DNA from: Acidilobus saccharovorans 345-15 | GTDB taxonomy: Archaea; Thermoproteota; Thermoprotei_A; Sulfolobales; Acidilobaceae | Length of the DNA stretch: 64,000 nucleotides | Direction: 5' to 3' | NCBI RefSeq assembly: GCF_000144915.1 | Contig: NC_014374.1 | Location: 186,001 to 250,000, forward strand | Part shown: piece after piece, positions 13,765 through 31,793 of the stretch | How the letters are laid out: each line of letters starts with the position of its first letter | Numbering within the stretch: the first letter of the stretch is position 1 | Translations under genes and position numbers: made by a program | Notes under the pieces: model-generated | Told to the model about the DNA's origin: nothing | Database searches by the model: none | What the model saw: only the letters and a program-made list of their open reading frames with translations

Positions 13765-13858
13765 GCACTCGTTCTCCTGATAAGGGCGACCCCCGAGAGC
13801 TTAAGAGATCTTGAGCGCAGGCTTTTAAATAGAGGATGCACAGACAAGGCCCACGAGT

Positions 13859-13951
13859 GCCGCCGTAGCTCAGCCGGTAGACCCTGCGCGGGCCGCCAGC
13901 GCCGGCCTTGTAAGCCGGTGGTCGCGGGTTCAAGTCCCGCCGGCGGCTCCA
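13859..13951 (+). tRNA. tRNA-Thr (anticodon TGT) with D-arm intron
   Basis: Acceptor GCCGCCG/CGGCGGC, anticodon stem CCGGC/GCCGG with loop CTTGTAA, variable loop TGGTC, and T arm GCGGG/CCCGC with TTCAAGT are all perfect. CCA is encoded (13949-13951). The D arm GCTC-AGCCGGTA-GAGC is interrupted between G and AGC by 17 bases, so the gene needs splicing to fold. A TATA-like CTTTTAAATAG lies about 30 bases upstream. The mature tRNA reads ACA/ACG threonine codons. Confidence 0.93.
13881..13897 (+). other. Non-canonical tRNA intron (D arm, 22/23)
   Basis: Seventeen bases must be removed to restore the D stem. Two equivalent cut registers exist because an A occurs at both ends: 13881-13897 or 13882-13898. 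The first register gives a four-pair central helix, CGGU (exon) with GCCG (intron), flanked by three-base bulges AG|A and CC|A, that is, a relaxed bulge-helix-bulge. The outer exon helix and inner intron helix are short (about 2 bp each). Introns at non-anticodon positions are known in crenarchaeal tRNAs. Confidence 0.85.
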
Positions 13952-31451: not shown

Positions 31452-31793
31452 GTGTACCAGGTTATAGTTAATGATAAGGACTGGCAGAAGGCCATAAAGA
31501 TGATAGAGGACCTCCACTTAGATCTTGAGACCTTCATCGTGTACTTTGACCTCAGGAGAAGGGGGAAAAAGGTTACCGTGGGACCTAGGCCTAGGACCCT
31601 GCTCTACAACATGACAGATAACAGGATAGCTGAAGTCCTGATATTAAGCGAAGGGAACTACGTCAAACTCATGGACATAGTTAGGTGGAGCCAGAGGGCA
31701 GCGGCAGATGCCCATGAACCGATATTAGCCATAGTGGATGAGAGCGGCGGCGTGACCTATTATGAGGCACGCGTGGTGAGGCAGCTTTCTTAG
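31452..31793 (+). CDS. tRNA-splicing endonuclease structural (beta) subunit, probable
   Basis: A 113-residue protein resembling the C-terminal domain of EndA. FIVYFDLRRRGKKVTVGPRP corresponds to the conserved DLRRRGY segment, and EPILAIVDESGGVTYYEARV to the C-terminal strand region. The histidine and lysine of the catalytic triad are not found at expected places (NRIAEVLIL replaces the histidine strand). That fits the structural subunit of the crenarchaeal two-subunit enzyme; the catalytic subunit must lie elsewhere. The heterotetrameric form is known to accept relaxed substrates. GTG start. The last bases overlap a convergent gene by four. Confidence 0.75.
   Translation: MYQVIVNDKDWQKAIKMIEDLHLDLETFIVYFDLRRRGKKVTVGPRPRTLLYNMTDNRIAEVLILSEGNYVKLMDIVRWSQRAAADAHEPILAIVDESGGVTYYEARVVRQLS

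Follow-up and report, generated by a model that had tools for sequence, protein, structure and literature searches.

A 17-nt non-canonical intron in the D arm of the sole tRNA-Thr(UGU) gene of Acidilobus saccharovorans 345-15

The 17 bases that interrupt the D arm of the sole tRNA-Thr(UGU) gene of the heat-loving archaeon Acidilobus saccharovorans are most probably (about 96%) an archaeal intron of the bulge-helix-bulge (BHB) type, located between positions 22 and 23 and spliced by the endonuclease EndA together with RtcB. In kind, the intron is essentially known, well supported and largely ordinary. As read from the sequence, it is confirmed as real rather than a product of chance, given the score of the locus against the Rfam tRNA model, an insert-free sister gene with an identical 5' part, a family-wide conserved insertion site and covariation in the motif centre.

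The tRNA-Thr(UGU) gene and its sister genes

The gene was studied in a window of 64,000 nt, i.e., the whole stretch of DNA that was analysed, and positions refer to this window unless the genome is named. The features of the locus are as follows:

13822–13831 (+), putative TATA-like box preceding the gene, in the region of CTTTTAAATA, read by eye
13859–13880 (+), 5' exon, positions 1–22, read from the sequence and equal to the 5' part of tRNA-Thr(GGU)
13875–13878 (+), exon strand of the predicted BHB central helix, C17 G18 G19 U20, covarying with the intron strand
13879–13881 (+), predicted 5' splice-site bulge A G ^ A with the cut behind G22, a register taken from the central helix and from relatives whose intron starts with G
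13881–13897 (+), 17-nt non-canonical intron at 22/23, ACCCTGCGCGGGCCGCC, from the one-intron scan and the orthologous insert found family-wide
13882–13891 (+), predicted intron-internal hairpin with a 2-bp CC/GG helix (usually 3–4 bp in relatives) and the TGCGC loop segment
13892–13895 (+), intron strand of the predicted central helix, GCCG, from covariation
13896–13898 (+), predicted 3' splice-site bulge C C ^ A, exon 2 starting at A23, from the register of the relatives
13898–13951 (+), 3' exon, positions 23–73 plus the encoded CCA, read from the sequence
13909–13911 (+), anticodon UGU, reading ACA, from the sequence and the one-intron scan

The locus (13859–13951, + strand) scores 57.6 bits against the Rfam tRNA model. 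Removal of 13881–13897 yields GCCGCCGTAGCTCAGCCGGTAGAGCGCCGGCCTTGTAAGCCGGTGGTCGCGGGTTCAAGTCCCGCCGGCGGCTCCA, a complete tRNA-Thr(UGU) with a full cloverleaf and the anticodon loop CTTGTAA at 13907–13913, and a scan of all single-intron removals returns, as its top solution, a 17-nt intron after nucleotide 22 with a centre score of 3.5 of 4. The original prediction—a perfect tRNA-Thr(UGU) once these bases are taken out between positions 22 and 23—was, thus, right in identity, length and position. A sigma-70 promoter scan, the model of which is not meaningful for archaea, gave no match.

The complete genome (1,496,453 bp, one contig) contains 45 tRNA genes, all of which were read, with one tRNA-Thr gene for each of the anticodons GGU, CGU, and UGU. 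Both sister genes have the same D arm as tRNA-Thr(UGU), free of the insert; tRNA-Thr(GGU) is devoid of an intron and identical to tRNA-Thr(UGU) over the 5' 26 nt, and tRNA-Thr(CGU) possesses a canonical 29-nt intron after position 37. Neither among the 45 tRNA genes nor in a whole-genome search with an anticodon-to-T-arm pattern, which gave a single match, was a second tRNA-Thr(UGU) gene found; the other intact copy that had been named as the finding that would overturn the prediction is, hence, missing from the complete genome.

The insert breaks the D stem, and the general tRNA finder ARAGORN calls the locus tRNA-Arg(CCG), both of which could be taken to indicate a pseudogene that was broken by a 17-base insertion, with ACA being read by another tRNA. 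However, there is no such other tRNA-Thr(UGU) gene, the remaining stems are undamaged, the family as a whole keeps the insert together with a covarying helix, and a spliced mature tRNA has been reported for the ortholog of Aeropyrum pernix (PMC4307357). The ACA codon is common (103 occurrences in 31 mechanically chosen long frames of the 64-kb window), which, in combination with the single gene copy, makes a pseudogene very unlikely. The identity proposed by ARAGORN is wrong; its anticodon CCG was taken at 13893–13895, inside the intron, and the correct assignment is tRNA-Thr(UGU).

Splice register, covariation and conservation

The central helix consists of the pairs C-G, G-C, G-C, and U-G (13875–13878 with 13892–13895). 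This 4-bp centre is bounded by a 3-nt bulge at each exon-intron border, an arrangement that is also present in relatives, and is flanked by helices of only 2 bp on either side, the outer of which is lacking in some relatives. The motif is, therefore, a relaxed one, and its description as a BHB whose 4-bp centre is good but whose flanking helices are weak has held up.

Because A13881 and A13898 are identical bases, removal of 13882–13898, corresponding to a cut at 23/24, would give the same mature product. The 4-bp centre, however, forms only with a cut after G22 and is lost in the shifted register; furthermore, the intron of four relatives starts with G while A23 is kept, which favours 22/23, as a cut at 23/24 would leave these relatives with G23, against the conserved A23. 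A cut at 23/24 is, accordingly, highly improbable, and the relatives appear to settle the cut at 22/23, which is listed among the known non-canonical intron sites (PMC4090602).

Among 34 genomes searched in the family of the window genome, the insert is present at the 22/23 site in all 30 that were readable (29 matching a pattern spanning the site and one with a 32-nt version). No insert is found in any of the 39 matching genomes of the families f2, f3, f4, f7, and f11, and 14 genomes of f6, f9, and f11 combine an intact D arm with a canonical 37/38 intron only. Outside the family, the insert is partly present, namely in four of five genomes of f8 and in one genome of f10. A CCCTGCGCGGGGCC-like core is found in nearly all family members, and an f8 intron carries a CTGCGCGGGG core. 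Presence throughout the family and absence from other families imply that the intron is old in the family, within which it was probably inherited vertically; its occurrence in f8 may reflect either a somewhat older origin or an independent gain.

In several relatives (six loci), a second 3' half of tRNA-Thr(UGU), from the anticodon stem onward, is present near the gene, mostly at a distance of ~0.7–1.4 kb, but 13 kb in one genome. Some of these extra halves follow a similar CTGAAAC...TATCTC stretch, and the halves as a group resemble the duplicated attachment sites of integrated elements. The duplicated segment does not include the D-arm intron.

The pairing of exon and intron was assessed in 33 distinct exon-intron sequences, in 31 of which all four centre pairs are formed. 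When the intron strands were re-dealt among the sequences (5000 trials), 15 were fully paired on average and 23 at most, and none of the 33 was fully paired when the register was slid by 1–3. At the level of distinct centre combinations, 11 of 13 are fully paired, compared with 5.3 on average after re-dealing, 11 being attained in none of the trials. Position 17 takes part in C-G, A-U, G-C, and U-A pairs, seen in related and, hence, not independent sequences.

Thermodynamic prediction gives a different picture, since the minimum free energy (MFE) fold of the naked precursor is devoid of the BHB (−46.1 vs. −37.4 kcal/mol at 37 °C); the motif is absent from the MFE fold at both 37 °C and 80 °C, and even with the acceptor, anticodon and T arms enforced, the probability of the BHB centre stays below 10%. 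Such a calculation on the isolated RNA leaves modification, protein and co-transcriptional folding out of account. As thermodynamics alone can, thus, neither establish nor refute the motif, the assessment relied on covariation. The MFE fold, together with the short and structured nature of the insert, would also suit a D-arm extension that is retained in a functional, oversized tRNA. This is scarcely credible, given that the length of the insert ranges between 14 and 32 nt against nearly constant exons, that the conserved pairing is that of a splicing motif and that spliced A. pernix cDNAs are without the insert (PMC4307357).

Returning to the intron, its apical loop TGCGC (13884–13889) is conserved in the relatives, even though it is dispensable for the splicing motif. 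TGCG occurs in 29 of the 33 distinct introns and an internal helix of 2–4 bp likewise in 29, and the GCGC of the loop is complementary to the exon GCGC at 13899–13902 (positions 24–27). It is conceivable, if improbable, that the UGCGC loop pairs with the exon GCGC and plays a role in precursor folding, in the timing of splicing, or as a small RNA after excision.

Splicing enzymes and related introns

The catalytic side of the proposed reaction is represented by an EndA alpha gene at 38.9 kb of the genome, the product of which matches A. pernix chain 3p1z_B with an E-value of 3e-52 and retains the catalytic His that is Ala in 3ajv; its K42 corresponds to A. pernix K44, the lysine of the Crenarchaea-specific loop. 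The second subunit is encoded in the window itself:

31452–31793 (+), predicted EndA beta (structural) subunit of the tRNA splicing endonuclease, matching A. pernix 3p1z_A with an E-value of 2e-27 (1423–1764 of the extracted locus)

By homology, the genome encodes both subunits of an (alpha-beta)2 EndA with a conserved loop lysine, and it is the Crenarchaea-specific loop and its lysine that let enzymes of this type cut relaxed motifs (PMC6379350). In the precursor, D-loop bases 17–20 would base-pair with the 3' portion of the intron to place two 3-nt bulges around the 4-bp centre; (alpha-beta)2 EndA, equipped with the loop lysine, would cut once in each bulge, and RtcB would ligate the exons to the mature tRNA reading ACA. 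Orthology and covariation both point to this mechanism in Acidilobus.

RtcB is the ligase expected in archaeal tRNA splicing. Its gene (genome 939883–941186) changes frame near codon 180 and is broken into two parts, in contrast to the single-frame gene of five relatives; the break may stem from a sequencing error or be a genuine frameshift in this ligase. In another relative, RtcB forms one 990-aa frame with ~1.25 kb between the two profile parts, an interruption that looks like an intein. Speaking against the proposed splicing are, in sum, the MFE fold without BHB, the 2-bp flanking helices and the frameshifted RtcB of the assembly.

The D-arm intron of A. pernix tRNA-Thr(UGU-1) was reportedly described by Yamazaki et al. 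in 2006. Spliced and unspliced cDNAs place it in the D arm, at a distance of 22 bases from the 5' end, and A. pernix EndA has been tested on a synthetic tRNA-Thr(UGU-1) precursor (Watanabe and Kawarabayasi 2015, PMC4307357). One relative in our set, G015, has an EndA alpha with 100% identity to the A. pernix chain of the solved structure and is, therefore, very probably A. pernix; it contains an orthologous 19-nt intron. Both G015 and a further genome, G023, carry the intron after nucleotide 22.

With the same host gene, the same site and a shared core, the 17-nt intron is best regarded as the ortholog of the A. pernix intron. The two agree in gene, site after nucleotide 22, BHB register, TGCGC loop motif, GTDB-type family and EndA type. 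They differ in length (19 nt in A. pernix, 17 nt here) and in the pairing of the D loop, which is AGGC with GCCT in A. pernix and CGGU with GCCG in Acidilobus. Furthermore, the spliced product has been observed for A. pernix, whereas the Acidilobus copy is known from sequence; cleavage and ligation would proceed in Acidilobus as in the A. pernix ortholog.

Other introns share parts of this picture. Non-canonical introns that a Crenarchaeal EndA cuts are likewise found in the D arm of Sulfolobus tokodaii tRNA-Glu (PMC4307357), but the tRNA is another one and the intron sequence is unrelated. Canonical 37/38 BHB introns, such as the 29-nt one in the anticodon loop of tRNA-Thr(CGU), share the enzyme and the logic of the 4-bp centre, but differ in position and length. 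Within the same genome, both tRNA-Lys genes (UUU/CUU; genome 1038701–1038800 and 1164318–1164418) share a 26-nt non-canonical intron, GCCGCGACGCCTAGCCGCGGGCGGAA, which is also a short BHB intron, but sits in the variable arm and has another sequence; variable-arm introns have been reported in both tRNA-Lys of A. pernix, too. For tRNA-Pro(CGG) (genome 110857–110959), the best reading places a 29-nt intron behind nucleotide ~33, and its A. pernix counterpart also has an intron outside 37/38.

In 217 archaeal genomes, 673 non-canonical introns have been counted (tRNAscan-SE 2.0 paper); our literature search found no paper describing the Acidilobus copy. The view that the intron tests the substrate range of the enzyme is less well founded, since this range is already known: splicing of the A. 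pernix ortholog occurs at the corresponding site, and acceptance of relaxed motifs by Crenarchaeal (alpha-beta)2 EndA is documented.

Significance

The A. pernix ortholog being already characterised, the present analysis adds a D-arm tRNA intron that is family-wide and backed by covariation. A practical point is that a general tRNA finder (ARAGORN) labels an essential tRNA-Thr(UGU) as tRNA-Arg(CCG). The natural variants found across the family, some without the outer flanking helix, constitute a ready panel of substrates for the Crenarchaeal endonuclease.
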